Source: Nocardia goodfellowii
Lineage (GTDB): Bacteria; Actinomycetota; Actinomycetes; Mycobacteriales; Mycobacteriaceae
Assembly (NCBI RefSeq): GCF_017875645.1
Contig: NZ_JAGGMR010000001.1
Coordinates: 496,001-560,000, forward strand
Direction: 5' to 3'
Length of the DNA stretch: 64,000 bases
Shown: positions 1 to 64,000 of the stretch, piece by piece
Layout: each line of letters begins with the position of its first letter
Numbering within the stretch: the stretch's first letter is position 1
The notes under the pieces: model-generated
The model's input: only the letters and a program-made list of their open reading frames with translations
Database searches by the model: none
What the model was told of the DNA's origin: nothing
Position numbers and translations under genes: made by a program

Positions 1-2060
1 AGATCAGCCGCCGGAGCGGCGACCACGAGGGCCGCGCCCTGCCCGCCCGCGGCGACGAGCTCGATCAGCCCGCCCGCGGACACCGGATCCGAGGTGGCGA
101 AGGTCCGGGACTCGTAGGTGAGGCCCGCGCGAAGGGCGAATCGGTCGGCGGCCGCGGCCAGCTGGTCGTAGGTCAGCGTGTGGTCCGCGGTGCGCAGCGC
201 CGGATCGCCGCCGCGCAGGGTGCGCAACCGCGTCGCGTAGGTGACCGGGCGGGTGGACTGGGCGTCGAGCTCGGCGCCCAGGGCGGGGTCGTCGAGCGTC
301 AGCCAGTCCACCCGGTCGGACGCTTCCGGTGTCCGCCGGGATGGCGACGCCGAACTGGTGAGGCCGAGCATCAGGTTCAGGCCCACCGGCTGGTCCCCGG
401 GTAGCAGCGCGGCACCCGCTTTGAGCACCGCCCAGCTCGCCACCATCGCCTCCACTCCGCGCGGTAAGCGCAGCGCGACGCCGGTGCCCGGACCGCAGCC
501 ATGGGCGATGAGCAGCCGCGCCAGCTGCGAGGAGCGCGCGTCCAGTTGCCGATAGGTGAGGACCTGGTCGCCCCAGACCAGCGCGGGGCTCTCCGGGTCG
601 TCTTCCACCGCGGCGGTCAGCGACTGCGCCAGCGCCGCGCCGGCTGTGCCGGTGGTCTCGGCGGTCGCCACCTGGGCGGCTTGCACGACCGGTTCCGGAT
701 CCGGTGTCACCTCGTCCAGCAGGTCGATCGCACCGACGGCGATCTCCGGGTCGGCGGCCACCACGGTCAGGATCCGCTCGAAGCTGCGGCCGAAGGCCTT
801 GATCGTCGACTCGTCGAAAAGATCGATCGCATAACTCAATACGACGTTCAACTCACCGGAGGCGCGCGGGTCGACGATCACCTGCAGATCGAACTCGGCG
901 GCGAGCGCGCCGGTGTCGAGGCCGGAGATCGTGAGTCCGGGCAGGGTCAGCGTCGGCGCCTCGGCGTTGTCGAACGACAACGCCACCTGGAACAGCGGGT
1001 CGGGTGCGGAACGACCGGCCGCGACCTCCTCGACCACCCGCTCGAACGGCACATCGGCGTTGCCGAAGGCCGACAGATCGGCTTCGCGCGCCTGCTCGAC
1101 CAGATCGTCGAAGGAAGCCTCGCTGTCGACGGTGATGCGCAATGCCAGGGTGTTGGCGAACATGCCGACCAGATCTTCGAGTGCCCGTTCCCCGCGTCCG
1201 GCGACAGCGGTGCCGATGGCGATATCGGAATTGCCGGACATGCGCGCCAGCAGCACCGCGAGCGCCGCGTGCACCACCATGAACAGCGTCGAATTGTGTT
1301 CGTGGGCAAGCTCGTCGAGATTGCGGTGCACCTCGGCGGGCAAGCTGATCCGAATCGACGCGCTGCGCCGCGACGGCACCGGCGGCCGCGGGCGATCCAG
1401 CGGCAGCGCCGGCGCTCCGGTCGATCCCGCCAGGCGATCCCGCCAGTAGGCGACTTGCTTTGCCGCCGCCGAGGTTTCGTCGTCCTCGGTGCCGATCGCG
1501 GTCCGTTGCCACAGCGCGAAGTCGGCGTACTGCACTTCCAGCGGCACCCAGGCGGGCGAACGACCCTCGACACGGGAGACATAGGCGGTCACCAGGTCAC
1601 GAACGAGCGGCGCCATCGATAGTCGATCCACCGAAATGCCATGCGCCACAATAACGAGAAGATGCTCCTCGGGGTTGTCGGCCGAGTTCAGCAACACCGC
1701 GCGCAGCGGGGGCGCGGTGGTGACATCGAATCCGCGCGACATCATGTCGGTGATGTGCGCGATCGGGTTCGTGGTCGTTTCCATATCCAGCCCGCCCGGC
1801 AATGCCTCGGCGACCGACACAATCTCCTGATACGGCACCCCGTCCGGCCCGATGGCCGGATAGCGGGTGCGCAGCACCTCATGCCGCTCCAGCACGTCGG
1901 CGACGGCATAACGCAGCGCGGACACGTCGAGCACGCCGGTGAGCCGGATCGCCAGCGGCAGGTTGGCGACGGGTGCGGCCGGATCGAGCTGGTTGCGAGC
2001 CCACACCGGCTGCTGCACCAGCGACAACGGAATTCGGGCGGGCCGCTCACCCCGGGCGAG
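1..2060 (-). other. NRPS3 degenerate C domain plus P-loop-less A domain
   Basis: The C domain entry motif is altered (LVQQPVWARN instead of [10 protein letters not shown]), and the active-site motif HHxxxDG reads HGISVDR at about 1635-1660. The catalytic second His is Gly and the Gly is Arg, so condensation activity is unlikely. The A domain that follows (about 690 to 1, running out of the window) retains TYRQLDARSSQLAR, but RTADHTLTYDQ stands where YTSGTTGRPKG should be. It closely parallels the half A domain at the end of the giant NRPS. Confidence 0.8.
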
Positions 2061-5000
2061 CGGCGGCCGGGTGGACGCCCCCAGGGCAACGCGGGCGGCC
2101 AGTGCCGCGACCGTCGAGGCCTGGAACAGTTCCCGCACCGCGAGATTCGCGTCCAGAGCCGCGTTGATCCGGGCCACCGCGCGGGTCGCCAACTGCGAAT
2201 TTCCGCCCAGGGCAAAGAAATCGTCGTCCAGGCCGATCTCCGCGCGGTGCAACAGGGTCGCGAAGACTTCCGCGACGGCCAGTTCGATCGGCGAGGAAGG
2301 AGCACGGAAGGTCGCGCCCGCGAATTCCGCCGCGGGCAGTGCCTTTCGGTCCAACTTTCCGTTCGGAGTGAGCGGCAGCGCGTCCAGCACCACGATGGCG
2401 TCCGGCACCATGTAGGCGGTGAGGAATTCCGCGGCCCGAGTACGCAATTCGTTCGGATCGAGCTGAGTGTCTTTGTCCGGCACCGCGTATCCGACGATCC
2501 GGTCACCCGCATGCTCGTCGGCGCTGACCAGCACCACCGCCTGGCGCACACCCGGGCAGCGCAGCAGCGCCGACTCGATCTCACCGAGTTCGATGCGGAA
2601 CCCGTGCAACTGCACCTGCTGGTCACTGCGCCCGGCGTACTCGAGGTTCGCGCGGCCGCCGAGCCCGACCCACCGGCCCACGTCACCGGTCCGGTACATC
2701 CGCGAACCGGGTTCGCCGAACGGATTCGCCACGAAACGGGTCGCGGTGAGCCCCGGGCTGCCGAGGTAGCCGCGGGCGAGCTGCTTACCGGCGACATTGA
2801 TCTCACCCGCGACACCGACCGGCGCGGGGTGCAGTCGCTCCTCGATGACGTATGCGTGCAGTCCTGGCAACGCCCGGCCGATCACGCTGGCCGCGTCGTC
2901 GACCATCTGCGCGTTCAGCGCCAGGAACGTCACGTGCACCGTGGCCTCGGTGAGGCCGTACATATTGACCAGCCACGGCGCGTCCATCGGATGCCGTTCG
3001 TACCAGCGCTTCAACTGACGCAGGTCCAGCGCCTCGCCGCCGAAGACGACGTAACGCAAGGGCAGGTCGGCCGCGGACGGCGCGGTCCGATCCGCTTCGG
3101 CCAGTTGATAGAACGCCGACGGTGTCTGGTTCAGCACCGTGACCTGTTCCCGAATGAGCAACTCACGGAACGACTCCGGCGAGCGGGCGGTGTGGTGGTC
3201 GACCACGACGACGGTGCCGCCGTTGGCCAGCGCACACCACAGTTCCCACACCGAGAAGTCGAAGGCGACCGAGTGGAACAACGTCCACACGTCGGTTTCG
3301 TCGAAGTCGAACAGGAGCTGGGTGTTGGCGAACAGCTCCACCACGGCGCGGTGCGGGACTCCGACACCCTTGGGCACGCCCGTCGACCCCGAGGTGTACA
3401 TGACGTACGCCAAATTGTCCGGGCGCAGCGGCGCGAACCGATCCCGGTCCGTGACGGGGCCGTCCGGCCGGTCACCGGTCCGCTCCAGCAGCAACACCGG
3501 CTGGGACGGCCGCCACCCCCAGGTTCCGATCACGTCGGCCGTGGTCAGGAGGGCGGCGGGCGCGGCGTCGGAGAGCATGAAATCCAGGCGCTGCGCCGGG
3601 TAGGTGGTGTCGATCGGAAGGTAGCCGGCACCGGTGAGCAATACCGCGAGCAAACCGACCGGCAGCTCCTCGGTGCGCGGAAGCGCCACGGCGACAATCG
3701 TTTCCGGGCCGGCGCCGTGGGCGATCAGCGCCCGTGCCGCCCGGTTCGCCCGGCGCTGCAATTCGGCGAAGGTCAGCGCGACGTCCCCGCAGCGCACCGC
3801 GATCGCGTCCGGGCGGCGGCGCGCCTGTGCCGCAACGAGATCCACCAGGGTGACCTCGGGGATGGCGGCGCCCTGGGTGTTCCACTCGCGCAACACCAAC
3901 GCCCGCTCCCCCGGAGCGAGCAGGTCGACATCACCGACCACAGCCGTGGTGTCGGTGGTGAGCGCGGACAATATCCGACGGAAGCGATCCGCGAAATCCG
4001 CCACGGTGGGCTCGTCGAACAGATCGGTGGCGTACCGGAAGGTGAGCGAAAGGCCCTGCGGTGAACCGTCTTCGGCGAGTTCCTCGACCAGTTCCAGCTG
4101 TAGGTCGTACTTCGCCAGCGGCACCGTGGGTGCCGTGCCCGCCACGCTCAGTTCGGGCAGTTCGAGCTGGGTGCGCGCCATGTTCTGCCCCACGAGCAGC
4201 ACCTGGAACAGCGGGTGCCGGGCCGTGGAGCGCACCGGATCCAGTGCTTGCACCAGCCACTCGAACGGCAGGTCTACGTGCTCCAAGGCTTCGAGATCGG
4301 TTCTGCGGACCTGGGCGAGCAGGTCCGCGAAGCTGATCCCCGGGTCGATCTCGGTGCGCAAGACCAGGGTGTTGACGAACATGCCGATCAGCTCGTCGAG
4401 CCCGTCCGCGTTCCGGCCCGGGACCAGCGTGCCGATGACGATGTCGCGGGTGCCCGACAGCCGGGACAGCAGCACCGCCAGTGCGGTGTGCGCCACCATG
4501 AACAAAGTCGAGTCAGTGTGCGAAGCAACCGTTTTCAGGGCGTCGTGCAATTCGGCGTCGACCGTGGTCTGGAACGTCGCCCCCCGGTTCGACGCGACGG
4601 CGGGCCGCGGCCGGTCGGCGGGCAGATTCAATTGCTCTGGCAGTGCGGCCAATTGACGCTGCCAGTACGCGCTCTGCGTGCTCAGCAACGATTCCGGATC
4701 ATCCTGCGAGCCCAGCAGCTCACGTTGCCAAATGGTGTAGTCGGCGTACTGGAGCCCCGGCATCGGCCGATCCGGCCGCCCGCCGCGGACGCGCTCCGCA
4801 TAGGCGGACATCAGATCCCTGATCAGCAGATCCATCGAGAAACTGTCACCGGCGATGTGGTGGACGACGCACACCAGCACATGCTCGTGATCACGCAACC
4901 GCAACAGTTGCACCCGAATCGGCGGCTTCACAGTGACGTCGAACTTGGTCATCGCCACCCGGGTGACGAACCCCGCAACCTGCTCCGGCGTCGAATCCAG

Positions 5001-8000
5001 CGTCGGCAGCGGCGGCACCGCCCGCGGATCGGTCAGCGGCAGCACAACCTGCACCCCGCCGCCGTCGACCTCCGGATAAACCGTCCGCAACACCTCGTGC
5101 CGCTGCACCAGATCCCGCATCGCCGACTGCAACGCCACCACATCCAGCCGCCCGGACAACCGGACCGCCACCGGAACATTGTCGACCGCCGAAGACGGTT
5201 CGAACCGATTCCGAAACCACATGCGCTCCTGCGCATAAGACAACGGCACCACCGCAGGCCGCTGCACCGAATGCAGCACGCGCCGCGCGGGACGGGCCGT
5301 TTGACCCGGCGCTGCGGCGAGGTCATCCTCGGGCATACCCGTCCGCGGTGACGCCGATTCAGGCAGCGTTCCGTCGGACAACGCCTCCTCTGGTGACGCG
5401 TCCGTCCGCGACACCGGCTCCGGAGACAACGGCTGGGGCGGTGCCGCATGCCGTGACGCCGACTCAGGGACTGCACGCTCAGACTCCGACCGGCCCGGGA
5501 ACGCCGACTCGGATGACAACGGATCCGAGGATGTCAGGTGCTGCGACGGGGACTCAGGCACTGCACTCTCAGACCCTGTCCGGCCCGGCAACGCCGACTC
5601 CGACGACAACGGCTCCGACGGTGTCGCGTGCCGCGACGCCGACTCAGGCACCGCTCTGTCAGCCCCCGTCCGGCCTGGCAACGCCGACTCCGACGACAAC
5701 GGTTGCGACGCTGCCCGGTGCTGCGAGACTGAATCGGGCACCGCTCGGTCGGGCAACGCCCGATCCGGCGACGCCGTCTGCCGCGACGCGGACTCAGGCG
5801 GGACACCCTCGAAACCCGCCCGCCCCGGCAACGCCGACTCGGATGACAACGAATCCGACTGTGCCGCGTGCCGCGACGCCGGCTCAGGCAGCGCCCGCTC
5901 ACGCACTGCCTGCTCCGGCGAGGCCGACTCCGATGACAACGAATCCGACTGTGCCGCATGCCAGTACGGCGACTCAGGCACTGCTTCCTCAGACCTCGAC
6001 CGCTCCGGCAATGCCGACTCGGACGTTAGGGGTTCCGGCGGTGCCACGTGCCGCGACGCCGACTCGCGCAGTACGTCCACACGCTTCGCCTGCTCCGGCA
6101 ACGTCATCCGCTGCCGCGCTGTCTCCGACGACACTCGCTCGGGCGTTGCCGTCTCTCGCGACACTGCCCCCGGTAGCGCGTCCTCCGGCGACGGCCGCTC
6201 CGGCGACGCCGAATCCCATGCCGCCGACTCAGGCCCTATCGACTCCGACAACGGCGGCCCGAACGGTTGTCCCTCGCCCCACTCCGACTCGCTTACTTCC
6301 GGCTCGGGCAAGGACTGCTCGGCCGGAGCCACGTGCCGCGACGCCGAATCAGGCCCTACCGACTCAGGCGACAATCGATCGGGCGGCGCTACACGCCGCG
6401 ACGCCCACTCGGGCTGCGCCCCTTCGGGCAATGATCGCTCGGGGCGTTCCACCCGACGAGGCACTGACTCGGGCAACGACCGCTCGGAAAGATGCTCCTG
6501 CCACCCCGACTCGCTCGACTCCGGCAACGACCGGTCAGACGGTGCCACGTGCTGCGGGGCACGCTCGAGTTGTGCTTCCTCCGGGCGTGGGATCTGCTGC
6601 CGTGACGACTCAGGATCTGCCGGTGCGAATGGCGGCGCGAGTGGTGCGGCAGCCCGCGATGCCGGGTCAGCAAGCGTCGCATGAGGTTCCGGTCGCTCAG
6701 GCAATCCCTTCTGGTGCCGTGCCGACTCGGACGACGTGGGCTGGGTGGGTGCCGCGTGCCGGGGCGGCGCCTCAGGCAATGACCATTGCGGCGCTGCCGA
6801 CTCGGGCAACGCAGATTCGCTCGGTCTCGACTCCGGTAATGGCCGATCGGACGGTGGTATCTCCCGCGAGGACTGCGGCGGCAGCTCACCGAATCTCGGT
6901 CGCTGTGGCAATGCCGGCTCTGGCGACTCCGGCTCGGACAACGACCGGTCGGACGGTGCCGTCTTCGGCGACGCGGACTCGGGCACTGCTGAATCCGTCA
7001 ACGATGGCTCGGATGGTGCCGCGTGCCGCGACGCCGAATCGGGCAATGTCGGTTCAGGCAGCGGCCGTTTCGGCGTCGAGTCCCGAGACGCCCACTCGGG
7101 GGCTGTCGTCCCGGGCGACGGCCGCTCGGCCGATGCCGCCTCGGCCGATGCCCACTCGCGGCGCACTGCTCGAGGCAATGGTCGCTGCGGGCGGCCCATC
7201 GGCCGTGGCACCGGCCCAGGTACCGCCGACTCGGGCAATGACGGCTCGGACGGTGCCGCATGCTGTGGGGTGGAACCAGGCGGCAGCTGCTCGGACGCCG
7301 GTCGTTCCGGCAACGCCGGACCACGCAACGCGGAATTCGGCGATGACGACTGGGGCAAGGACGGCTCGGACGGCGCCCGGTGCCGCGACGCCGAATCACG
7401 CAGTGCTGGTTCAGGCGACTGCTGCTCCGGCGCTGCGGTCTCCCGCGGCGCAGACTCGGGCGCTGCCGGATTCCGCGACGCCGGAGCACGCAGGGTCTGC
7501 TCAGACGCCGGTCGTTCCGACGATGCGGTCTCCGGCAACCCCGGCTCGGGCGTCGACAACTTGGGCAACGACGACTTGGGCGGTGCCAGATGCTGCGGTG
7601 CCGAATCAGGCAATACCTGCTCCGGCGCTGCAATCTCCTGTGACGACGGCTCATGTCCTGCCGACTCGGACAACCGTGGCTCGAATCCCGCTGACTCGGT
7701 CAGCGCCGAATCGGACGATGCCACATGCCGCGACGCCGACTGGCCCCCGGACGACGCGCTGAACGACCGCTCGGGCGCGGTCGCGTGCTGCGGCGGCGGC
7801 TCAGGCAGCGTCCGCTCCGGCGAACTCGATTGATCCAAAGCCCGCTCTGGCGAACTCGTGTCACGCAATGCCCGCTCCGGCAACCCCCGCTCACGCAACG
7901 CGGGCTCCAGCAACCCCGGCTCATCCGAGATCCGCTCCGGCGACCCCGACTGACCCAACGCCCGCTCCCGCGAGCTCGTCTCACCCAACGTCCGCTCCGG

Positions 8001-9341
8001 CAACCCCGGTTCGCGCAACGCCCGCTCCAGCAGGGCGGCCCGGTCCAATTTGCCGAGTGGGTCCGGTGCGGTCTTGTCGAGTGGTGATGTCGACGCCTCG
8101 GCGGCGGGGGGTTGCGCGGGGATGAGGACGCCGTCGGTGGTGCGGCGTACCAGTTTTCCGGTGCGGTAGAGGCGGGTTCCGGGGGTGTCGGTTTTCGCGC
8201 CGAAGGGGTTGGCTATGAAGCGGTCGGAGGTGGGGGCGGGGTCGCGGAAGTAGCCCTGGGCGAGGGCTGGGCCGGAGAGGTAGAGCTCACCGGTGGCGTC
8301 GGTGGGGACGGGGCGTAGTCGGGGGTCGAGTACGAATGCGTCGATGCCGGGGATCGGGGTGCCGAGGGTGATCGGGTCGGCGGTGCGGATGGGTGGGGTG
8401 CTGGTGGCGAGGGTGGTGGTTTCGGTGGGGCCGTAGCAGTGGTAGAGGTCGCGGGTGGGGGCGGTCCAGCGGGTCAGCAGGTCCGGATCGAGGGTGTCGC
8501 CGGTGACGACTACGACCTGGAGGTCGGGGAGGTCCGCGGGGTCGATGGAGGTCAGCGTGCGCGGGGTGCTCAGAAGGTGGGTCACCTGTTCGGCGCGGAG
8601 CAGGTCGGTCAGTTCGGGTCCGCCGGATATCGACGGCGGGGACACCACCAGCGTCGCGCCTGCCGAGCAGGCGAGCAGCAGTTCCAGCACCGACACGTCG
8701 GCGTTCGGCGAATGACCGTGCAAGACCCGGGAATCGGCGGTGACGCGATAGTGGGCGGAGGCGGCGACCAGCCCGGCCAGGCCGGTGTGCGTGACCACCA
8801 CGCCCTTCGGCTCATCGGTGTAGATGGCGTACGCCGGGTGCCGTTCGTCGAGCGAGCGCACGCGCTCGGCCTCGGTGATCGGATGCTCCGGGCGGTCCAG
8901 AATCCGCTGCGCCACCACCGGATCGTCGAGCTCGATCCAGTAGATGTCCGAGCCGAGGGCGCGCCGATGCCGCGAGGTGGTGACTCCGATCGTTGCGCCG
9001 CAGTCCCGCACGATGTGCGCGACCCACTCCGTCGGATCAGCCGGGTCGACGGGCACGTAGGCGGCGCCGGTTTTCGCGATCGCCCACACCGCGAGAACGG
9101 ATTCGACACCGCGCGCGACGCCGAGGGCCACCATGTCACCGGGGCCGAGACCGCGCGCGATCAGCTCCCGGGCCAGCCGCGAAGAGTCCGCGTCCAGTTG
9201 GCGGTAGGTGAATTCCTCGGCTCCGGCTCGCACGGCCACCGCGTCGGCGGCGGCTGCCACGGCGGCGGTGAGCAGGTGATCGAAGGTGAGGCGGGCCGCC
9301 CCGGGATGGGCACTACGACCGGAACGATGGGTGATATCCAT
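1..9341 (-). CDS. NRPS3: non-ribosomal peptide synthetase with dead N-terminal A domain and decapeptide repeat array (3' end outside window)
   Basis: A cytoplasmic multimodular synthetase; 3113 codons are visible and no stop codon is reached. The ATG at 9341 follows a GAGAGGTG-like ribosome site. The frame is continuous: the start, the C-domain motif near 5222 and the left edge all fall in the same phase. Domain order: degenerate A (about residues 20-430), about 90 ten-residue repeats (about 436-1332), C (HHIAGDS, about residue 1495), A (A3 P-loop intact, specificity residues DFWNVGMVHK, the textbook Thr code), T (LGGNSQ, about residue 2380), C with broken motif (AHGISVDR), then an A domain without a P-loop. 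Only the middle C-A-T looks catalytically competent. It lies 93 bp downstream of a LuxR-type regulator. What it joins to lies outside the window. The NRPS family is certain; the role of the decayed ends is inference. Confidence 0.95.
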   Translation of the reverse strand, partial: MDITHRSGRSAHPGAARLTFDHLLTAAVAAAADAVAVRAGAEEFTYRQLDADSSRLARELIARGLGPGDMVALGVARGVESVLAVWAIAKTGAAYVPVDPADPTEWVAHIVRDCGATIGVTTSRHRRALGSDIYWIELDDPVVAQRILDRPEHPITEAERVRSLDERHPAYAIYTDEPKGVVVTHTGLAGLVAASAHYRVTADSRVLHGHSPNADVSVLELLLACSAGATLVVSPPSISGGPELTDLLRAEQVTHLLSTPRTLTSIDPADLPDLQVVVVTGDTLDPDLLTRWTAPTRDLYHCYGPTETTTLATSTPPIRTADPITLGTPIPGIDAFVLDPRLRPVPTDATGELYLSGPALAQGYFRDPAPTSDRFIANPFGAKTDTPGTRLYRTGKLVRRTTDGVLIPAQPPAAEASTSPLDKTAPDPLGKLDRAALLERALREPGLPERTLGETSSRERALGQSGSPERISDEPGLLEPALRERGLPERALRDTSSPERALDQSSSPERTLPEPPPQHATAPERSFSASSGGQSASRHVASSDSALTESAGFEPRLSESAGHEPSSQEIAAPEQVLPDSAPQHLAPPKSSLPKLSTPEPGLPETASSERPASEQTLRAPASRNPAAPESAPRETAAPEQQSPEPALRDSASRHRAPSEPSLPQSSSPNSALRGPALPERPASEQLPPGSTPQHAAPSEPSLPESAVPGPVPRPMGRPQRPLPRAVRREWASAEAASAERPSPGTTAPEWASRDSTPKRPLPEPTLPDSASRHAAPSEPSLTDSAVPESASPKTAPSDRSLSEPESPEPALPQRPRFGELPPQSSREIPPSDRPLPESRPSESALPESAAPQWSLPEAPPRHAAPTQPTSSESARHQKGLPERPEPHATLADPASRAAAPLAPPFAPADPESSRQQIPRPEEAQLERAPQHVAPSDRSLPESSESGWQEHLSERSLPESVPRRVERPERSLPEGAQPEWASRRVAPPDRLSPESVGPDSASRHVAPAEQSLPEPEVSESEWGEGQPFGPPLSESIGPESAAWDSASPERPSPEDALPGAVSRETATPERVSSETARQRMTLPEQAKRVDVLRESASRHVAPPEPLTSESALPERSRSEEAVPESPYWHAAQSDSLSSESASPEQAVRERALPEPASRHAAQSDSLSSESALPGRAGFEGVPPESASRQTASPDRALPDRAVPDSVSQHRAASQPLSSESALPGRTGADRAVPESASRHATPSEPLSSESALPGRTGSESAVPESPSQHLTSSDPLSSESAFPGRSESERAVPESASRHAAPPQPLSPEPVSRTDASPEEALSDGTLPESASPRTGMPEDDLAAAPGQTARPARRVLHSVQRPAVVPLSYAQERMWFRNRFEPSSAVDNVPVAVRLSGRLDVVALQSAMRDLVQRHEVLRTVYPEVDGGGVQVVLPLTDPRAVPPLPTLDSTPEQVAGFVTRVAMTKFDVTVKPPIRVQLLRLRDHEHVLVCVVHHIAGDSFSMDLLIRDLMSAYAERVRGGRPDRPMPGLQYADYTIWQRELLGSQDDPESLLSTQSAYWQRQLAALPEQLNLPADRPRPAVASNRGATFQTTVDAELHDALKTVASHTDSTLFMVAHTALAVLLSRLSGTRDIVIGTLVPGRNADGLDELIGMFVNTLVLRTEIDPGISFADLLAQVRRTDLEALEHVDLPFEWLVQALDPVRSTARHPLFQVLLVGQNMARTQLELPELSVAGTAPTVPLAKYDLQLELVEELAEDGSPQGLSLTFRYATDLFDEPTVADFADRFRRILSALTTDTTAVVGDVDLLAPGERALVLREWNTQGAAIPEVTLVDLVAAQARRRPDAIAVRCGDVALTFAELQRRANRAARALIAHGAGPETIVAVALPRTEELPVGLLAVLLTGAGYLPIDTTYPAQRLDFMLSDAAPAALLTTADVIGTWGWRPSQPVLLLERTGDRPDGPVTDRDRFAPLRPDNLAYVMYTSGSTGVPKGVGVPHRAVVELFANTQLLFDFDETDVWTLFHSVAFDFSVWELWCALANGGTVVVVDHHTARSPESFRELLIREQVTVLNQTPSAFYQLAEADRTAPSAADLPLRYVVFGGEALDLRQLKRWYERHPMDAPWLVNMYGLTEATVHVTFLALNAQMVDDAASVIGRALPGLHAYVIEERLHPAPVGVAGEINVAGKQLARGYLGSPGLTATRFVANPFGEPGSRMYRTGDVGRWVGLGGRANLEYAGRSDQQVQLHGFRIELGEIESALLRCPGVRQAVVLVSADEHAGDRIVGYAVPDKDTQLDPNELRTRAAEFLTAYMVPDAIVVLDALPLTPNGKLDRKALPAAEFAGATFRAPSSPIELAVAEVFATLLHRAEIGLDDDFFALGGNSQLATRAVARINAALDANLAVRELFQASTVAALAARVALGASTRPPLARGERPARIPLSLVQQPVWARNQLDPAAPVANLPLAIRLTGVLDVSALRYAVADVLERHEVLRTRYPAIGPDGVPYQEIVSVAEALPGGLDMETTTNPIAHITDMMSRGFDVTTAPPLRAVLLNSADNPEEHLLVIVAHGISVDRLSMAPLVRDLVTAYVSRVEGRSPAWVPLEVQYADFALWQRTAIGTEDDETSAAAKQVAYWRDRLAGSTGAPALPLDRPRPPVPSRRSASIRISLPAEVHRNLDELAHEHNSTLFMVVHAALAVLLARMSGNSDIAIGTAVAGRGERALEDLVGMFANTLALRITVDSEASFDDLVEQAREADLSAFGNADVPFERVVEEVAAGRSAPDPLFQVALSFDNAEAPTLTLPGLTISGLDTGALAAEFDLQVIVDPRASGELNVVLSYAIDLFDESTIKAFGRSFERILTVVAADPEIAVGAIDLLDEVTPDPEPVVQAAQVATAETTGTAGAALAQSLTAAVEDDPESPALVWGDQVLTYRQLDARSSQLARLLIAHGCGPGTGVALRLPRGVEAMVASWAVLKAGAALLPGDQPVGLNLMLGLTSSASPSRRTPEASDRVDWLTLDDPALGAELDAQSTRPVTYATRLRTLRGGDPALRTADHTLTYDQLAAAADRFALRAGLTYESRTFATSDPVSAGGLIELVAAGGQGAALVVAAPAAD
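2060..5270 (-). other. NRPS3 complete module C-A(Thr)-T
   Basis: The condensation domain opens with LSYAQERMWF near 5222 and carries HHIAGDS at 4842-4862. The catalytic second His is present, and the usual Gly of HHxxxDG is Ser. The A domain has an intact P-loop (about 3370-3405) and specificity residues DFWNVGMVHK, identical to the established threonine code. A8 reads [14 protein letters not shown], with K-to-Q and R-to-H changes. GKLDRKALP (A10) and a T domain with LGGNSQ (about 2195-2215) complete it. Confidence 0.85.
5345..8034 (-). repeat. Decapeptide (30-bp period) repeat array inside NRPS3, about 90 units
   Basis: About 2690 bp encode about 896 residues of Ser/Pro/Glu/Ala/Arg/Leu-rich sequence with a ten-residue period. 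Consecutive units at the N-terminal end read GLPERTLGET, SSRERALGQS, GSPERISDEP, GLLEPALRER, GLPERALRDT, SSPERALDQS, SSPERTLPEP. Further in, units such as AAPEQVLPDS, QSPEPALRDS and SLPQSSSPNS keep the same spacing. A SASRHxAP variant recurs at intervals close to multiples of 30 bp. No hydrophobic core or catalytic motif is visible, so it is probably disordered or an extended linker. It sits where the A-domain C-subdomain and T domain of module 1 would be, directly before the C domain. I know of no NRPS linker of this kind. Confidence 0.9.
8035..9300 (-). other. Degenerate N-terminal adenylation domain of NRPS3
   Basis: The first 430 residues align by eye with the N-terminal A domain of NRPS2 (shared LLTAAV, TYRQLD and GPGDM stretches). 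Three features needed for adenylation are missing. The A3 P-loop (normally [11 protein letters not shown]) is shortened to YTDEPKG at 8802-8822. The A7 motif YRTGD reads YRTGK at 8151-8168, losing the ribose-binding Asp. The whole C-terminal subdomain with the A8 hinge is absent, so the sequence jumps from A7 to an A10-like LGKLDRAAL at about 8035-8060. No thiolation domain follows. Family knowledge says such a domain cannot activate an amino acid. A structural or docking role is inference. Confidence 0.85.
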
Positions 9342-9434: not shown

Positions 9435-10418
9435 TCAGAGCCAGCCGCGCCGGGTGGCCTGCACTCCGGCCTGGAACCGGGTGCTCGCGCCCAGCCGTTC
9501 CAACAGCCGCGCGGTGCGCCGCACCACGGTGCGGCGGGACATGCCGAGCCGGCGGGCGATGGTGTCGTCGGTGGCACCCAGGCCCATCAGGGTGAGGATC
9601 GCTTTGTCGCGTTCGTCGAGTTCCTCGGCGGAGGGATTGACCGAGATCGGCGCGGCCAGCGACCACAGGACGTCGAAGGTTTTGATCATCAAGCGCAACG
9701 CGGGCGAGCCGGAGACTCTGATGCCCATCGGATCCGGTCTGCGTTCGTCGGCGTGCAGGACCAGGATGCCGCGCTCGTCGTCGACGACGATCATCTTGAA
9801 CGGCGGTTCCGGCAGCGTACGGGCCTGCGCCCCACTGGCATTGGTGGCCAGCGCGTGACGTAGTCGTTCCGCGTCCTGATAGATGGTGTCCTGGTACAGC
9901 GTCTGGTAGCGGATGCCCTCGGCGAGGCGGGCCCGTTTCAGCTGGAACTGGCGCTGTTCGCGTTCGGAATCGCTGAGGTAGGGCCCGCGTTCGATGAGCT
10001 TCACCGAAGCTCGTGCGGCGGACTGGATTTCCTCGAAGTCGGCCAGCATCTCGACCCGCTCGAACACCGGCACGATAGCGCCGTTGCTGCGCGGGGAGCG
10101 CCGCACCGAACGGAAGGTTTCGCTGAGTCGTGCCGCGGCGGCGTGCATCTGGCTGATCTCGTGCTGACGGCGGCGCGCCTCGGATTCCGAGAGTGATTCC
10201 GGCGCATGCGCATCCCAGACGGGCGCGCCGTCGCCGTTGGAAAGCTGTACCGCGGCTTGCAGTTCGCACAGCACCTTCAGCGAGGCGGCCGCGGACTCCT
10301 CCGAAACATCCAGATAGCGGGCGATATCGGCCAACTCGGAGCGCGGATGATGCACCAGCACGGCGTAGGTACGTCCGTGCGGAGAATCCGGTTCGAAGAT
10401 ATCGCCCAGCTCGGTCAC
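9435..10418 (-). CDS. LuxR-type helix-turn-helix transcriptional regulator
   Basis: A 327-residue cytoplasmic DNA-binding protein. The C-terminal 55 residues form a LuxR-like helix-turn-helix (DERDKAIL, then ATDDTIARRLGMSRRTVVRR). The N-terminus (residues about 15-65, YAVLVHHPRSELADIARYLD) looks like a TrmB-type winged helix. No receiver domain is evident in the middle. This TrmB-plus-LuxR layout is common in actinomycetes. The start is GTG at 10418 with a weak ribosome site. It ends 93 bp before NRPS3 on the same strand and is the obvious candidate for its control. The gap holds a small hairpin, CGGCC-GCAT-GGCCG, at 9371-9384. The target genes are inference. Confidence 0.8.
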   Translation of the reverse strand: MTELGDIFEPDSPHGRTYAVLVHHPRSELADIARYLDVSEESAAASLKVLCELQAAVQLSNGDGAPVWDAHAPESLSESEARRRQHEISQMHAAAARLSETFRSVRRSPRSNGAIVPVFERVEMLADFEEIQSAARASVKLIERGPYLSDSEREQRQFQLKRARLAEGIRYQTLYQDTIYQDAERLRHALATNASGAQARTLPEPPFKMIVVDDERGILVLHADERRPDPMGIRVSGSPALRLMIKTFDVLWSLAAPISVNPSAEELDERDKAILTLMGLGATDDTIARRLGMSRRTVVRRTARLLERLGASTRFQAGVQATRRGWL

Positions 10419-10479: not shown

Positions 10480-11343
10480 TCAGTGCTTGGACGGGCCCCA
10501 CTGCATCGGCACGCCCTTGGCGGCCAGATACGGCAGGGGATCGATTTTCGCGCCGCCCTGGTCCCAGATTTCCAGGTGCAGGTGCGGGCCGCTGGAGTTG
10601 CCGCGGTTGCCGACCGAGGCGATGACATCGCCCGCCCGCACCCGCTGGCCCTCGTGCACGAACATGTCGTTGACGTGGCCGTAGACCGCGGTGGTGCCGT
10701 CGTCCTGCAGCACCCGCACCCAGAGGCCGAAGCCCGATGCCGGGCCGGCCTCGATGACGGTGCCGCTGCTGACGGAGTGGATCGGGGCGCCGAGATGGTC
10801 GGCGAAGTCGACACCGTAATGCATGGTGCCCCAGCGGGCGCCGTAGCCGGAGCTGATCTGGCCGGCTACCGGGCGCACCGCGGTGGCCGGGGCGACCTGC
10901 TGCTGCACACCTTTGAGGACCTCTTCGACCTGGGACAGCGGGCCCGCGATCTCCGGCGGCAGGTTCTGGATGCCGAACGGCTGCGCCACGGGGGCGGCGA
11001 CCTGGGCCGCGACCGGAGTGGGCTCGGGCGCGACATCGGCCACCGGGGTGGCGAACTTGGCCTGGGTGGCGGAGATGTCGCCGGCGCCCTTGAAGGTGAT
11101 GGGCTCGGCGGCCTTGTCGTCGCTGTCGTGATGCGGCGACAACGGCGCGGCCAGGGCCGGTGCGACCTGAGTTGCGGTGCCGACCAGGGCGCCCGCGGCG
11201 ACCGCGAAGGTGGCGACGCGCTTGACGCGCTCGGTCGAGGCCGACTCGGCGCGATGCCGGGTGGGGCGCTCGGAGACCGCAACCTGATCGCCCAGAAGGC
11301 TCATGACGGTGATGGAACTGGGGCCAACCCGGTGCTGCGACAA
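10480..11343 (-). CDS. Secreted M23-family (LytM-type) peptidoglycan endopeptidase
   Basis: A cell-wall metallopeptidase expected to cut peptidoglycan cross-bridges outside the membrane. A signal sequence (hydrophobic VATFAVAAGALVG, Ala-rich cleavage region APALA-AP) is followed by a Pro/Ala-rich spacer and a C-terminal M23 domain. Zinc-site motifs are HYGVDFAD (about residue 175) and HLHLEIW (about 255); GYGARWG and YGHVND are also typical. The reading frame opens at a TTG (11343) preceded by AGGACG about eight bases upstream. An ATG at 11304 is an alternative, giving a shorter N-terminus, but has no visible ribosome site. It is transcribed away from the nitronate monooxygenase gene and appears unrelated to the NRPS genes. 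Confidence 0.88.
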   Translation of the reverse strand: MSQHRVGPSSITVMSLLGDQVAVSERPTRHRAESASTERVKRVATFAVAAGALVGTATQVAPALAAPLSPHHDSDDKAAEPITFKGAGDISATQAKFATPVADVAPEPTPVAAQVAAPVAQPFGIQNLPPEIAGPLSQVEEVLKGVQQQVAPATAVRPVAGQISSGYGARWGTMHYGVDFADHLGAPIHSVSSGTVIEAGPASGFGLWVRVLQDDGTTAVYGHVNDMFVHEGQRVRAGDVIASVGNRGNSSGPHLHLEIWDQGGAKIDPLPYLAAKGVPMQWGPSKH

Positions 11344-11421
11344 AGCTTCGTCCTAGCGTCCGACCTACAGGGAGAACGGAGGTCCGAAATTTGTAACGTT
11401 TCGGCTTCCGTTGTGACGGGA

Positions 11422-11549: not shown

Positions 11550-12578
11550 GTGATCCTCGATGAGTTGCAGACGCCGATCGTGCTCGCGCCCATGGCGGGT
11601 GGCCCTTCCACACCGGAGTTGACCGCGGCCGTGTCCGAGGCGGGCGGCCTCGGACTGCTCGCCGCCGGATATCTCGGCACCGCGGAGACCGCCGCTCGGA
11701 TCGAGCAGACCCGCGCGCTCACCGGCAAGCCGTTCGGCGTGAATCTCTTCGCGGCGGGCGCGCCCACTCCCCCGGCCGAATTCGCCGGCTATCTGGACGC
11801 GTTGGCGACCGGGCACGAACTCGGCGCACCGAAGTACGACGGCGACGCCTGGGACGCGAAGATCGATCTGCTTGTCGCGGCACCTGTTCCGGTGGTCACA
11901 TGTACCTTCGGCTGCTTCACCGCGGACGAGGCCGCCCGGTTGCATGCCGTCGGCTCGGAGGTGTGGGTGACGGTGACCTCGGTGGCCGAAGCGACCGTGG
12001 CCGCCGAAGCGGGTGCGGACGTGCTCGTCGCCCAGGGAGCCGAGGCCGGCGGTCATCGCGCGACCTTCACCGATCGGGTCGCCGACGATGTGGTGGATCC
12101 GATCGGGTTGCTGTCCCTGCTCCAATTGCTGTCCGCCGCCGTGGATCTCCCGCTGGTGGCGACCGGCGGAATCACCACGGGCGCGGGTCTCGCCGGGGTG
12201 CTGGCCGCCGGCGCACGCGCGGCGCAATTGGGCACTGTCTTCTTGCGCTGCCCGGAAGCCGGTACCAATCCGGTGCACAAGGGCGCGCTGGGTTCGCCGG
12301 CCCCGACCATGCTCACCCGGGCGTTCACCGGGCGACGCGCCCGCGGCATCCGCAATCGCTTCATGCTGGAGCACACCGACGCGCCCGCCGCGTACCCGGA
12401 GATCCATTACGCGACCGCCCCATTGCGCGCCGCCGCGCGCGCCGCCGGGGACGCCGAAGAGGTGAACCTCTGGGCCGGGCAGACCCACTCGCTCGCGCCC
12501 GAGTTGCCCGCCGGTGAACTGGTCACGCGGCTGACCACGGAAGCGAAAACCGCTCTGCACAAGGCTCTTTCACGCTGA
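11550..12578 (+). CDS. Nitronate monooxygenase (2-nitropropane dioxygenase family)
   Basis: A 342-residue FMN-dependent TIM-barrel enzyme that oxidises alkyl nitronates such as propionate 3-nitronate. Characteristic stretches are LAPMAGGPSTPEL near the N-terminus, QGAEAGGHRA (with the family's active-site His) near residue 165, and VATGGITTG and GARAAQLGT for phosphate/flavin binding. The length is normal. The start is GTG at 11550 with little upstream ribosome-site signal, so it may be leaderless. It is followed after 21 bp by the lipase gene, probably co-transcribed. No link to the NRPS genes is evident. Confidence 0.88.
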   Translation: MILDELQTPIVLAPMAGGPSTPELTAAVSEAGGLGLLAAGYLGTAETAARIEQTRALTGKPFGVNLFAAGAPTPPAEFAGYLDALATGHELGAPKYDGDAWDAKIDLLVAAPVPVVTCTFGCFTADEAARLHAVGSEVWVTVTSVAEATVAAEAGADVLVAQGAEAGGHRATFTDRVADDVVDPIGLLSLLQLLSAAVDLPLVATGGITTGAGLAGVLAAGARAAQLGTVFLRCPEAGTNPVHKGALGSPAPTMLTRAFTGRRARGIRNRFMLEHTDAPAAYPEIHYATAPLRAAARAAGDAEEVNLWAGQTHSLAPELPAGELVTRLTTEAKTALHKALSR

Positions 12579-13317: not shown

Positions 13318-14955
<1,638 letters not shown>

Positions 14956-15010
14956 CGGGGTACTCCTCTTTTCCTGCCGGTGGCCGAAGAGAGCCACGTC
15001 ACATCCGGGG

Positions 15011-15038
15011 ATGCTACCCAAAGGTAGTCACGGCGGAA
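15011..15038 (-). promoter_or_regulatory. Possible promoter with overlapping operator-like palindrome upstream of the FadD gene
   Basis: On the minus strand TTCCGC and TAGCAT are 16 bases apart. A perfect inverted repeat CTACC-CAAA-GGTAG (plus strand, 15014-15027) overlaps the putative -10. It could be a repressor site serving this divergent pair. Pattern only. The rest of the 266-bp gap (14956-15221) shows nothing I can name. Confidence 0.25.
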
Positions 15039-15221: not shown

Positions 15222-16364
15222 ATGCCTGTTGATCGGATGCTGCCCACCCCCGAGGCTCGCGACCTCATCGAGCTCACCCGCGATATCGCCGACAAGGTGC
15301 TGGAGCCGCGGGTGGTCGAGTGCGAGAAGACCGGAACCTTCCCCGAGGGGGTCTTCCCCGCGCTCGGCGCCGCCGGGCTGCTGAGCCTGCCCTACCCCGA
15401 GGAATTCGGCGGCGGCGCACAGCCCTACGAGGTGTACCTGCAGGTGCTCGAGGAACTGGCGAGCCGCTGGGCCGCCGTCGCGGTCGCGGTCAGCGTGCAC
15501 AGCCTGTCCTGCCACCCGCTGTTCACCTTCGGCACCGACGCGCAGCAACAGCAGTGGCTGCACACCATGCTTTCCGGTGAAACCATCGGCGCCTACAGCC
15601 TTTCCGAGCCGCACGCCGGTTCCGACGCCGCCGCCCTGCGCTGCCGGGCCACCAAAACCGACGACGGCTACCGCATCACCGGCTCGAAGGCCTGGATCAC
15701 CAACGGCGGCCGCGCCGACTTCTACACCCTGTTCGCGCGCACCGGCGAAGGCTCCCGCGGCATCTCCTGCTTTCTGGTCCCCAAAGACACCGCGGGCCTG
15801 AGCTTCGGCAAGCCTGAGGAGAAGATGGGCCTGCGCGGGATCCCCACCACCACCGCCGCCTACGACGACGCCCTGCTCCCGGCCGAACGCCTGATCGGCG
15901 CGGAGGGCCAAGGTCTTTCGATCGCCTTCAGCGCCTTGGACTCCGGTCGCCTCGGCATCGCCGCCGTCGCCACCGGTCTCGCCCAGCGCGCGCTGGACGA
16001 CGCCGTCGCCTACGCCAAGGAACGCGAAGCCTTCGGCCGGCACATCATCGACCATCAGGGCCTCGGCTTCGTCCTCGCCGACATGGCCGCCGCCGTCGAC
16101 TCCGCCCGCGCCACCTACCTCGACGCCGCTCGCCGCCGCGACGCCGGCCTGCCGTACTCCCGCCAGGCCAGCGTCGCGAAACTCGTCGCCACCGACGCCG
16201 CCATGAAGGTCACCACGGACGCGGTCCAGGTCTTCGGCGGCTACGGCTACACCCAGGACTTCCCCGTCGAGCGCTACATGCGGGAAGCGAAGGTCATGCA
16301 GATCTTCGAGGGCACCAACCAGATTCAGCGTCTGGTCATCGCCCGCGGACTCGCCGCGGGCTGA
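15222..16364 (+). CDS. Acyl-CoA dehydrogenase
   Basis: A 380-residue FAD flavoenzyme that makes the alpha-beta double bond in acyl-CoA thioesters. The family signature LSEPHAGSDA (about residue 127), the FAD/substrate loop WITNGGRADF, VFGGYGYTQDFPVER and the C-terminal FEGTNQIQRLVIAR are intact. The Glu of FEGTN (about 363) is at the position of the catalytic base in short/branched-chain members. Length is typical. It is divergent from the FadD gene, so the two may share fatty-acid-responsive control. Its 3' end is 22 bp from the convergent end of NRPS2. Confidence 0.92.
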   Translation: MPVDRMLPTPEARDLIELTRDIADKVLEPRVVECEKTGTFPEGVFPALGAAGLLSLPYPEEFGGGAQPYEVYLQVLEELASRWAAVAVAVSVHSLSCHPLFTFGTDAQQQQWLHTMLSGETIGAYSLSEPHAGSDAAALRCRATKTDDGYRITGSKAWITNGGRADFYTLFARTGEGSRGISCFLVPKDTAGLSFGKPEEKMGLRGIPTTTAAYDDALLPAERLIGAEGQGLSIAFSALDSGRLGIAAVATGLAQRALDDAVAYAKEREAFGRHIIDHQGLGFVLADMAAAVDSARATYLDAARRRDAGLPYSRQASVAKLVATDAAMKVTTDAVQVFGGYGYTQDFPVERYMREAKVMQIFEGTNQIQRLVIARGLAAG

Positions 16365-16386: not shown

Positions 16387-17520
16387 TCAGCGGGCCGCCC
16401 CGACCTCGTCGAGTTGCTCGCCCAGCGGAGCCGGGAAGAAGCCGACCTCGACGTAGTAGTCGAAGTAGCGGGCCAGGATTTCCGGGCCCACCGTGGGCAT
16501 GGTGTATTCCACTTCGCTTTCGTGCGGGGCCGGGTGCTCCTCGACGGTGCCCGGATCCTCCTCGGCCCGATCGGCCGCGGCGGCGCCCTCACCGGCGTAA
16601 TTGATGATGAGGGCCGCTGCCCGGATCAGGGGCTCGTCACCGGTGGCGATCGCGTGCTCGGCGGCTTCGGCGACCGCCTGCACGAACTCCCTGGGCTCGA
16701 CCATGGATACCGGGTAGCCGCGCCGCCGTGCCTCCGCGGTGACGGTCTCCCAGACGCCCTCGCTCGTACCGGTGAGGAAGTGCACGGCGTGCTCCGGATC
16801 CGGTTCACCGGAGAGCCGGATCAGCTCGGCGGCGACGTGGTCGACCGGCGCCATCGGCTGTTCGATGACACCGAAGTCCGGCCACACCCCGAGAACCAGC
16901 ATGGCGCGGATCATCGTCATCGCGGCGTCGTCGACCGGGGCCGCGCCGGTGCGGGAATCGCCGGTAAGCAGGCCCGGTCGATAGATCGTGGCCGGGATAC
17001 CACGGTCCAGGGCGGCCCAGACCAGCTGTTCGCCAACCCATTTGGAGAGTGCGTAGCCCTCCATCCCGATCGGTACCCCGCCCTCCTGCGGAGTGCCCTC
17101 CAGCACGGACACCGTCGACACATAGTGCAGCGGTTTGATCCGGGTGGTGGTCGCCAACCGCAGCACCTCGACGGTGCCGCCGACGTTCGCCGCCCGCATT
17201 CGCGAATACGGTTCGATGTGGTTGACCTGAGCGCCGTTGTGGTAGATCACGTCGATCCGCTCCGCCAGCATCGCGAACCGAGCCGGTTCGAGGCCGAGCC
17301 GCGGGCGGGCCAGGTCGCCGGTGACCGCGACGATCCGGTCGCGGTAAGGCTCCAGATCGACCCGATACTGTCGTGCCACCGCGTCGATTCGGGCCGCACC
17401 GGCGGCGTCGTCGGTGGCGCGGACCAGGCAGTAGACGGTCGCGGTCGTCCGTTCGAGCAACTCACGCAGCAGGAAGCTGCCCAGGAAGCCCGTGGCCCCG
17501 GTGATCAGGATGGATTCCGG
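16387..17520 (-). other. NRPS2 terminal thioester reductase (R) domain
   Basis: A short-chain-dehydrogenase-like domain with nucleotide-binding GATGFLGS and catalytic Thr (YVSTVSV), Tyr and Lys (YALSKW). Such domains reduce the T-bound thioester to an aldehyde, often onward to an alcohol, replacing a thioesterase. A Glu/Pro-rich insert ([11 protein letters not shown]) lies near the C-terminus. Confidence 0.9.
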
Positions 17521-20500
17521 CGCACCCGCGCGCGGCGCGGCGCAACCGGCGACGCTGATGGCGGCGTCCAGCACCGTATCGGCCATGGGGTCGGAGCCGT
17601 CGGAGGCTTCGGCTCGGTCGCCGTCGCGCAACGCGATGGCCAGCGCGCCGACACTCGAGTGCGCGAACAGCATCTTGATCGAGACCGGCCGGCCGAGTTC
17701 GGCGGTGAGCGCCGCGCAAGCCCGGATACCCAGCAGCGAATTGCCGCCCAGCTCATAGAAATCGTCGTCCAAGCCGACCTGTTCGGCATCGAGCACGGCG
17801 GCGAAGACCTTGGCGATGGCCTGCTCCTCCGGGGTGCTGGGTGCCCGGTATTCCCGCGCGACGGCCAGCGGAGCCGGCAGCGCCGCCCGGTCGAGTTTGC
17901 CGTGCGCACTGACCGGGATCTTGTCGAGCACCACGAAGGCCGCGGGCACCATGTAGGTGGGCAATTGCCGCGCCGCCGCCGATTTCACGTCCTCGATCGA
18001 GATCACGGCGCCGGGGGCCGGCACCAGATAGGCGACCAGCTGTTCGCCCAGGCGCTCGTCGGCGCGCACTATCACGGTCGCCTGTGCCACCGATTCGACG
18101 CCGGCGAGCGCGGCCTCGATCTCGCCCAGTTCGATCCGCTGGCCCCGCAGCTTCACCTGGAAGTCGGTGCGGCCCAGGTACTCCAGCTCACCGGCGGCGG
18201 TCCAGCGCACCAGATCGCCGGTGCGATACATCCGCTCGCCCGCGACGAACGGATCGGCGACGAAGCGATCCGACGTCAGATCCGGACGCCCCACGTATCC
18301 GCGCGCCAGTTGCACACCGCCGAGATACAGCTCACCGACCACGCCGACCGGCACCAGCCGCAGCCGCGCGTCCAGTGCGTAACCGCGCGTGTTCAACAGC
18401 GGGCGGCCGATCGGCACCGACACCACGTCGTCGTCGACCACCTCGTGGAAGGTGGCGTGCACCGTGGCCTCGGTGGGGCCGTACAGGTTGTGCAGGGCGG
18501 AGCCGGTCAGCTCACGCAACTGCTGGGCGGGCTTGGGCGCCAAGGCTTCGCCGACCGCGATCACGTGGCGCAACGAGGTGCATCGGGCCACCGTCGGCTC
18601 GCCCACGAACACCGCCAGCATCGAGGGCACGAAATTGCCCATCGTCACGCCCTCGGCGGTGATCACCTCCGCCAGATACACCGGATCCTGGTGCCCGTCC
18701 GGTCGGGCGATCACCAGCCGCGCACCGATCTGCAAGGGCAGGAAGAACTCCCACAGCGAGACGTCGAAGGTCGCCGGGGTCTTCAGCAGCATCACGTCAT
18801 CGGCCGTCAACTCGTACTCGGTGCGCAGCCACACCAGGTGGTTCACGATCGCCGCGTGCGACACCCCGACGCCCTTCGGGCGGCCCGTCGAGCCCGAGGT
18901 GAACAGGACGTAGGCCGTGTTCGCGGAGCGCAGCGGCGCGATCCGGTCCGCGTCGGTCACCAGTGCGGCCGAGTATCCGGACAGGTCCAGCGAGTCCAGA
19001 TCGACGAGCTGGTGTCCGCCCTCCGCCGCGGCGGCCGCGACATCGGCGATATCGGTCGCGGTGGTCAGGACACAGACCGGGTCCGCGGTCGCCAGGACGT
19101 ACGCGGTGCGTTCGGCCGGATGGTCCGGGTCCAGCGGCACATAGCCACCGCCCGCCACCGTGATCGCGTAGATCCCGATCACCAGGTCCAGCGAGCGGCG
19201 CATGCCCAGCGAGACCAGCCGGTCCGGCCCGACGCCCAGCGAAATCAGATGCCGCGCAAGCTGATTCACCCGTGCCGCGAATTCGGCGTAGGTCAGGGAC
19301 TCGCCCTCGAAGCTCACCGCGACCGCGTCGGGCGTGCGCTCCACCTGCGCCTGGAACAGCGCTGCCAGGTTCGCTGACGCGTCGATCGGGGCGATGGCGC
19401 CGGTGCCCGCCCGCAGCAGAGCGTTTCGCTCGGCCGGGGCCAGCAGATCGACATCGCCGACCACGGCCCGCGGATCGGCGGCCACCGCCGCCAGCACCCG
19501 GCCGAACTGTTCGGCGAGTGCCGCGATGGTCGCCTCGTCGAAGATGTCGGTCGCGTAGCCGAAGCCGACCGACAGCTCACCGAAGGTGCGATCGGCGTGC
19601 ACCACGGGGGCGACGCCGATACTCAGGTCGAACTTCGCCGCGAAGGCGCCGTCGTGCTCGCCCGCGATGGTCAGTCCCGGCAGTTCGAGGTGCACGGGTT
19701 CGGTGTTCTGGAACGCCAGCAACACCTGGAACAGCGGATTCTGATTGCGACCCCGGTGCGGGGCGACCTCGTCCACGATCCGTTCGAACGGGAGGTCGGC
19801 GTTGTCCAGGGCGGCCAGGTCGATCTCACGGATCCGGTCGACCAGGGTGTCGAAACCGAGGGCGCTGTCCACCTCGGTGCGCAATGTCAGGGTGTTGACG
19901 AACATACCCACGAGGTCGTCCAGCGCGCGGGCGCCGCGGCCCGCGACCGGCGTGCCGATCGCCACGTCGGTGCGCCCGCACACTCGGGCCAGCAGCACGG
20001 CGAGCGCCGCGTGCACCACCATGAACAGCGTCGCGTTCCGTTCCCGCGCAAGATGATCCAGTGCGCGGTGCACCTCCGCGGGCACCATGAGCGTGGTCAC
20101 CGCGCCCCGCGCCGACGGCGTCGGCGGATGCGGGCGATCCTGCGGCAGGCCCGGCAACGCGGACAGTCCGGCCAGCTGTTCCCGCCAGTAAGCCAATTGG
20201 CTTGCGGCAAGCGAATTCTCGTCGTTCTCGTCACCGAGAACGCGGCGCTGCCACAGGGCGTAGTCCGCGTACTGGACTTCCAGCGGGGCCCACCCGGGGG
20301 TAGCGCCGGTGCTGCGCGCGATGTAGGCCGTCATCAGGTCGCGTGCCAGCGGCGGGACCGAGGAGCCGTCGCCGGTGATGTGGTGGATCACCATCGCGAA
20401 CACATGATCCCGCGCACCGGACGGGTCGACCGCCGCACTGGTGAACAGGGCCGCGCGCAGCGGAACCTCCTGTGTCACATCGAATCCGCGGGACATCAGC

Positions 20501-25905: not shown

Positions 25906-25922
25906 TCCACTTCCTCACTCTC

Positions 25923-27181: not shown

Positions 27182-64000
<36,819 letters not shown>

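Follow-up and report, generated by a model that had tools for sequence, protein, structure and literature searches.

The window analysed here (the whole 64,000-nucleotide stretch of the Nocardia goodfellowii genome) holds at its left edge gene 1, which encodes a nonribosomal peptide synthetase (NRPS) subunit with an annotated start at 9341. From N- to C-terminus, this subunit consists of a dead A-domain core (A*), a remnant of the A C-terminal subdomain, a long tandem repeat array, a C domain (C1), an A domain (A2) with its C-terminal subdomain, a carrier (T) domain (T2), a second C domain (C2) and half an A domain (Table 1). Module 1 departs from the canonical form: the A3 P-loop of A* reads TD----EPKG in place of TSGSTGKPKG, A7 reads YRTGK in place of YRTGD, with loss of the aspartate, and no T domain was found between A* and C1. 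The subdomain remnant, about 36 residues long, compares with a profile of 104 positions in orthologues; the array starts right after its A10-like motif and ends some 30 residues ahead of C1. In module 2, A3, A7 and T2 are intact, and C1 has the final glycine of HHxxxDG changed, with both histidines and the aspartate kept. The half A domain covers about the first 241 of 357 core positions. A partial A domain also closes all 28 other gene-1 proteins compared (in two pieces in the sister genome G120, and limited to the first 127 positions in G004), and this element may possibly serve in docking.

Table 1. Features of the locus and of related loci; positions are those of the window unless a contig or another stretch is named.
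Feature	Position	Strand	Basis
NRPS subunit 1 (gene 1), 3176 aa in all (P0032), running off the left edge of the window	3..9341	-	ORF; orthologues
Dead A-domain core (A*)	8142..9209	-	449 bits to the A-core profile built in this analysis; motif alignment
Remnant of A C-terminal subdomain, about 36 aa, ending in A10-like GKLDRAA	8034..8141	-	Sequence; orthologue comparison
Tandem repeat array of 896 aa; base unit 5 aa (15 bp), higher orders of 10 and 30 aa	5346..8033	-	Period analysis, Tandem Repeats Finder
C domain of module 2 (C1), motif HHIAGDS	3903..5252	-	Profile and motif alignment
A domain of module 2 (A2), A3 TSGSTGVPKG and A7 YRTGD intact	2673..3776	-	Profile and motif alignment
A C-terminal subdomain of module 2, A10 GKLDR	2334..2645	-	Profile
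Carrier (T) domain of module 2 (T2), LGGNS with phosphopantetheine serine	2097..2294	-	Profile and motifs
C domain of module 3 (C2), motif HGISVDR (second His and Gly lost)	714..2036	-	Motif alignment
C-terminal half A domain, running off the window	3..560	-	Domain matching
LuxR-type regulator, 98% identical in G120	9438..10418	-	
M23 metallopeptidase (GCF 6 marker), 94% identical in G120	10486..11352	-	
Nitronate monooxygenase / nitropropane dioxygenase (GCF 6 marker), 88% identical in G120	11550..12578	+	
Stand-alone AMP-forming acyl ligase, 95% identical in G120	13321..15021	-	
Next NRPS gene (gene 2), 5623-codon frame without a stop	G000:C1:477495-494363 (outside the window)		Joined L095 and L030
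Carrier-less NRPS-like protein	L091:846-10283; relatives in L092, L093, L094, L096		

GCF 6 is a conserved orphan NRPS assembly line of Nocardia with 7-13 modules, whose invariant environment comprises nitropropane dioxygenase, metallopeptidase, esterase/hydrolase, epimerase and enoyl-CoA dehydratase genes, according to the accessible part of the report describing it (Maennle et al. 2020, PMC7413640). By gene content our locus falls within this family, as it contains a nitronate monooxygenase, an alpha/beta hydrolase, an esterase, an M23 peptidase and an enoyl-CoA hydratase, an assignment made from that list of neighbour genes. For the epimerase of the list there is only an ORF, partially matched by a reductase profile at 61 bits, which lies beyond gene 2 together with the enoyl-CoA hydratase. 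Regulator, peptidase and ligase genes were also found in G128 and in three genomes of a second clade considered below (G106, G127 and G070), the acyl ligase being 79-83% identical in G128 and three second-clade genomes. The dioxygenase had no match in the searched stretches of these same four genomes, the hydrolase none in any searched relative stretch, and in the G043 stretch no flanking gene was matched; these absences count against a uniform locus. In the G120 stretches upstream of the acyl ligase (L064, L067, L097) no NRPS was found. A 380-residue plus-strand ORF at 15222-16364, opposite a listed minus-strand ORF, is 97% identical in G120 and for that reason is probably a real gene.

The window's other large NRPS ORFs (16390-25914 and 27185-64000) carry a T domain with LGG[ND]S after 13 of 13 pairs of A domain and subdomain. 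The first encodes a three-module NRPS with a terminal reductase. The second, on the minus strand, encodes the last 12,272 residues of a giant NRPS that likewise closes with a partial A domain and whose final E domain lacks HHxxxDG; GC content probably explains the long ORFs on the opposite plus strand, such as 48977-64000.

A first-pass annotation of this DNA, made from the letters, had proposed a continuous in-frame array of about 896 residues between a dead A domain and a C domain, and this description holds: the 896 codons are free of stops and in frame with the NRPS ORF, and the remaining five frames across the stretch contain 1 to 32 stops each. The repeats had been read as decapeptides; they are indeed tandem, but their base period is five residues, ten being a higher order. 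Identity at a lag of 15 nt is 0.470, compared with 0.359 (sd 0.008) for codon-shuffled arrays (z 14.7), and the higher orders give z 14.6 at lag 30 and z 16.7 at lag 90, so that the 30-bp periodicity on which the earlier claim had been staked stands clearly above composition-matched shuffles. When the array is split in thirds, each third exceeds 500 codon shuffles at lags 15 and 30 (equalled by 0/500 shuffles). Erosion is strongest in the middle third, where lag 90 is only weakly above control (5/500), and the clearest 90-bp units lie in the last third (lag-90 identity 0.64). Tandem Repeats Finder, the check suggested at first pass, returned periodic rows of 15, 30, 60, 90 and 120 bp that cover parts of the array and not the whole.

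Serine, proline, alanine, glutamate and arginine make up 619 of the 896 array residues. The array falls on the disordered side of the charge-hydropathy line, with 78% disorder-promoting residues, A*, C and A2 falling on the folded side, and an AlphaFold2 model of it, built from one sequence only, has a mean pLDDT of 34.6. These predictions agree with the earlier suggestion of a probably disordered spacer, and the array is likely disordered. Against 5.8 billion protein sequences, the only one to score among 7975 scored candidates (those of matching length that shared the most words) was the array's own protein (E 1e-5), so the proposed comparison across related proteins returned the window's own NRPS and no relatives. 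A search of genome contigs gave 171 stretches with the pattern, none of them related, in a collection that possibly excludes the window's own genome. The Pfam pentapeptide-repeat profile was unmatched, Condensation, AMP-binding, AMP-binding_C and PP-binding being the sole matches at E 0.01. A composition scan of the 120 listed A*-domain matches out of 2348 flagged the window's own protein and P0093 (4 scan windows). The latter is a Nocardia yamanashiensis NRPS whose A domains contain two low-complexity inserts, each of roughly 100 residues (at about 1960-2110 and 3900-4060); these adjoin an intact-looking A3 in an otherwise intact-looking synthetase.

What the array replaced can be read from G120, which at this place has an A C-terminal subdomain, next a T domain reading LGGNS, and then the C domain. 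The right edge of the array matches a 26-letter stretch of G120, at which the window reads TARPARRVLHSVQRPAVVPLSYAQERM. This alignment and the matching edge place the array in the carrier's position, as opposed to being an enlarged linker beside a carrier, and the initial view of an expanded inter-domain spacer gives way to one in which the array, not being an addition to a normal module, stands in for both the subdomain and the carrier domain. In 15 of 29 gene-1 proteins the A core is followed by subdomain and T, and 202-221 residues separate it from the C or E domain that comes next; in the window's protein this distance, to C1, is 963 residues, and there is no T. The 29 proteins of our tree were chosen from 150 genus genomes with weak matches deliberately included, so the 14 of 29 lacking an intact pair of subdomain and T are not a frequency. 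A strong A-domain match occurs in all 150 genomes, a match not being a proven orthologue; G023, whose best match is another kind of NRPS ending in a domain beyond the profiles, was left out of the tree, and the G143 and G118 loci were left unclassified. Among 43 loci checked from the A* search (L003-L014, L033-L063), T was present in 31, and the 12 negatives comprise three of the T-less group (L013, L014, L062) and nine in which the locus ends before T can be judged.

On the tree, the window's protein is sister to the intact G120 protein, on a branch about nine times longer (0.25 vs 0.028), and since it sits outside the other T-less clade, the carrier was lost independently in the window's lineage. 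Gene 1 is 75% identical to its G120 counterpart, compared with 94-98% for the regulator, peptidase and ligase and 88% for the dioxygenase. Between the window and G120, dN/dS is 0.29 for A*, 0.25 for C1, 0.17 for A2, 0.10 for the subdomain, 0.15 for T2, 0.28 for C2 and 0.41 for the half A domain; in the array region, 211 codons that align only loosely give 0.62. The dN/dS values between genes given here and below are pairwise estimates (Nei-Gojobori for the second-clade pairs) and not a codon-model test, and those on the window's branch, a lineage sampled by one genome, may blend pre-loss constraint with relaxation that came later.

Thirteen other Nocardia genomes form the second clade, in which module 1 of gene 1 is damaged and to which the intact G128 is sister. 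T is absent in 12 of the 13, and in the thirteenth (G084) its serine is changed to threonine; G004 retains the A C-terminal subdomain. In the 12 T-less proteins 55-510 residues separate the A core from the C or E that follows, with 449-510 in G075, G106, G073 and G112; the G106 linker, the one tested among these four long ones, is periodic (best lag 49, z 10.1; lag 25, z 8.2). If T was never regained and G084 and G128 keep theirs, at least four losses are counted on the tree, some nodes of which have 62-82% support. Motifs deviate well beyond the lost carrier: A3 of the first A domain, C1 and C2 each in 13 of 13, E in all 12 proteins having one, and A3 of A2 in 12 of 13 (intact in G084). The second histidine of C2 is changed in all 13, and T2 keeps LGG[ND]S in all 13. 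Some changes are milder, as the module-1 A7 aspartate is kept (YRTGD or FRTGD) in 10 of 13, in 5 of 12 E domains only the final glycine is affected, and the same holds for C1 in G084 alone. In the pairs tested, dN/dS is 0.04-0.40 for folded domains and 0.43-0.71 for linkers that follow the A core or precede the half A domain; over the whole of gene 1 it is 0.18-0.23 for three intact pairs and 0.25-0.31 for nine pairs within the clade. These pairwise values support purifying selection on the folded domains of proteins whose catalytic motifs have largely changed, and the second-clade subunits have likely been put to another use.

In the second clade, gene 1 has as its neighbour a gene for an NRPS-like protein of about 3,000-3,700 residues. 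The order of its parts is A, linker, C, A with C-terminal subdomain, E, linker and A, and there is no T among them. In G128 it is the third gene, next to a pair of NRPS genes whose A3, HHxxxDG and T motifs are intact. This carrier-less protein occurs in 15 of 150 genus genomes, counted at an identity of at least 79% across the E-like part, and the match contains no stop. For closer comparison, 24 proteins were chosen from the 120 listed of 1655 matches by their having no carrier Pfam, so that the count of T domains by profiles, 0 of 24, is partly so by construction. First linkers measure 248-442 residues and last linkers 461-866 (in the 20 proteins with both ends), and some proteins have an extra linker before E; these linkers look disordered. 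In the first linker, islands are conserved in at least 70-90% of the 24 proteins (D.EQSLPIR, sRLASE.RDm.LpGRGYLeMPDR and A.AFYEnp), which argues for sequence-specific roles of linkers in this family; the last linker carries 9-19 LP[QRK][RQ] motifs per protein in the 20 that were counted. The dN/dS of the carrier-less protein is 0.07-0.43 in folded domains and 0.35-0.67 in linkers. NCBI names the protein 'AMP-binding protein' in N. fusca, N. sienata, N. testacea, N. jinanensis, N. carnea, N. flavorosea and others.

Gene 2 of the window's own genome has three further in-frame arrays, with units of 6, 11 and 20 residues. Its first A domain has neither subdomain nor T ahead of the next C. The 6-residue array precedes a later A domain whose A3 region has become eight tandem 11-residue A3-like copies (YISGTAGSPQV type), and the 20-residue array occupies the expected site of subdomain and T in that same module; on the charge-hydropathy plot the 6-residue array lies on the disordered side and the other two on the folded side. 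Two C-A-T modules are retained, one with the A3 lysine changed to glutamine. The A3 array shows that an array of this type can be built up by duplicating an NRPS motif in tandem, and together with the 15-bp base unit it fits growth of the window's array by in-frame duplication. At first pass, growth by 30-bp slippage had been proposed; the base unit is 15 bp. Compared with one another, units of the window's array give dN/dS of 0.57-1.22 depending on lag and cut-off, with a weak codon-position test, which points to little constraint on array residues. In favour of a maintained frame, 339 of the 896 array codons are one change from a stop and yet none is present, and when random replacement of the array was simulated at 10%, 10 of 2000 runs stayed free of stops; against it, 126 of 2000 did so at 5%.

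As for the source of the unit, the A10 motif is the candidate to which the G106 array points, with module-2 A10 ranking first and module-1 A10 fifth of 3140 sequence windows. We dropped the same motif as the seed of the array in the window's protein, for which A10 ranked 10 and 15 of 2457, with the T-C linker higher and a mixed DNA-level test; G112 was ambiguous too (A10 rank 5, an unrelated sequence window first).

Our preferred reading, to which we give a probability of roughly 60%, is that the array is an in-frame repeat at the carrier site of a dead module, likely a disordered tether, in a synthetase that is probably becoming a mostly non-catalytic scaffold. The carrier of module 1 would have fallen out of use and then been lost, with the array taking its place. 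The repeats would have grown by duplication in multiples of 15 bp, whereby the frame is kept, once the carrier was no longer needed; growth after module 1 lost function, as envisaged earlier, is compatible with the data, which do not establish the sequence of events. The dead A core may be retained for its fold, in docking or structure, as may the folds on both sides of the array. T2, the sole surviving carrier of subunit 1, would still take its phosphopantetheine arm and likely still be charged, by its own A domain here or in trans, and with the array acting as tether the whole NRPS could be reused as a scaffold. Because the A2 and T2 motifs are kept and gene 2 has two C-A-T modules, some peptide synthesis is possible in the window's strain.

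The same observations could in part reflect plain decay, in which GCF 6 is dispensable in this strain, the NRPS is becoming a pseudogene and the array is slippage junk that stayed in frame by chance. The fast branch of the lineage, the loss of several catalytic motifs, four distinct arrays across two adjacent genes, and divergence among the units of the window's array at dN/dS 0.57-1.22 all suit decay, yet we regard it as unlikely in view of stop-free frames of 3176 and 5623 codons, folded-domain dN/dS of 0.10-0.41 between the window and G120, and second-clade proteins that have most motifs changed and have nevertheless diverged among species at dN/dS mostly 0.1-0.3. Still less probable is a bypass, in which a shorter peptide continues to be made and the long, flexible array gives partners access to module 2 despite the dead module 1 before it. 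The motifs retained by A2, T2 and parts of gene 2, and the two histidines and aspartate kept in C1, would permit this; the C domain of module 3 reads HGISVDR, though, the module bridging genes 1 and 2 has no T, a later gene 2 module combines a broken A3 with a missing T, and the second histidine of C2 is changed throughout the second clade. It is very unlikely that the repeats recruit a specific partner protein, for which the conserved motifs in the first linker of the carrier-less family might offer a precedent, as the array units are variable and occur in no other protein of our search. Long GC-rich repeats are error-prone in sequencing and assembly, and an artefact of this kind has a negligible chance given a 7.98 Mb genome in just 2 contigs, a frame held across 896 codons, units that are diverged and not identical, and 12 separately assembled genomes that also have carrier losses with low-complexity linkers.

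A broader form of the scaffold reading is more tentative, and we hold it at somewhat under even odds: NRPSs may have turned into non-catalytic megaproteins at least twice in Nocardia, with carriers replaced by disordered arrays derived from their own sequence, dead folds under selection and the carrier-less protein with its linear motifs as an adjacent scaffold, the window showing a case of its own that changes fast and has four arrays spread over two genes.

Several known systems offer partial parallels. The locus resembles GCF 6 in its large NRPS line and its neighbour genes, and it differs in the repeat arrays, lost carriers and dead motifs, which the accessible part of that report does not mention (PMC7413640). 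With a canonical A-T-C module it shares an A core, an A10-like motif and a C domain in the usual order, but here A3 and A7 are broken, the subdomain is mostly gone and an 896-residue array stands in for T. In-frame minisatellite or VNTR proteins have tandem units in multiples of three bases and hierarchical higher-order units, as this array does, although here the array sits in an NRPS at the place of a carrier domain. Catalytically dead pseudoenzymes retained as scaffolds are a general concept, and the second clade resembles them in having changed catalytic residues in folds under purifying selection; the difference is that here the proteins are multidomain NRPSs some 3,000 residues long that have lost carriers. 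Catalytic loss combined with dN/dS well below 1 is supported in the second clade by pairwise values, and the window's lineage is represented by one genome. In searches of an open-access library, no paper brought together 'pseudoenzyme' and 'nonribosomal peptide synthetase', and we recognised none describing an NRPS with such an array or this carrier loss. The type of NRPS and the locus are already known; of the replacement of carriers by arrays in motif-changed, fold-constrained proteins we recognised no account in the literature searched.

In conclusion, a widely conserved NRPS locus exists in several species without many of its catalytic motifs and carriers, while its folds are still constrained. 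NRPS genes are annotated and mined on the premise that they produce peptides, and some 'NRPS clusters' may have no NRPS product. The array is a natural record of repeats taking over the place of a domain within an ORF, and the locus offers a testable case of a megasynthase turning into a scaffold.
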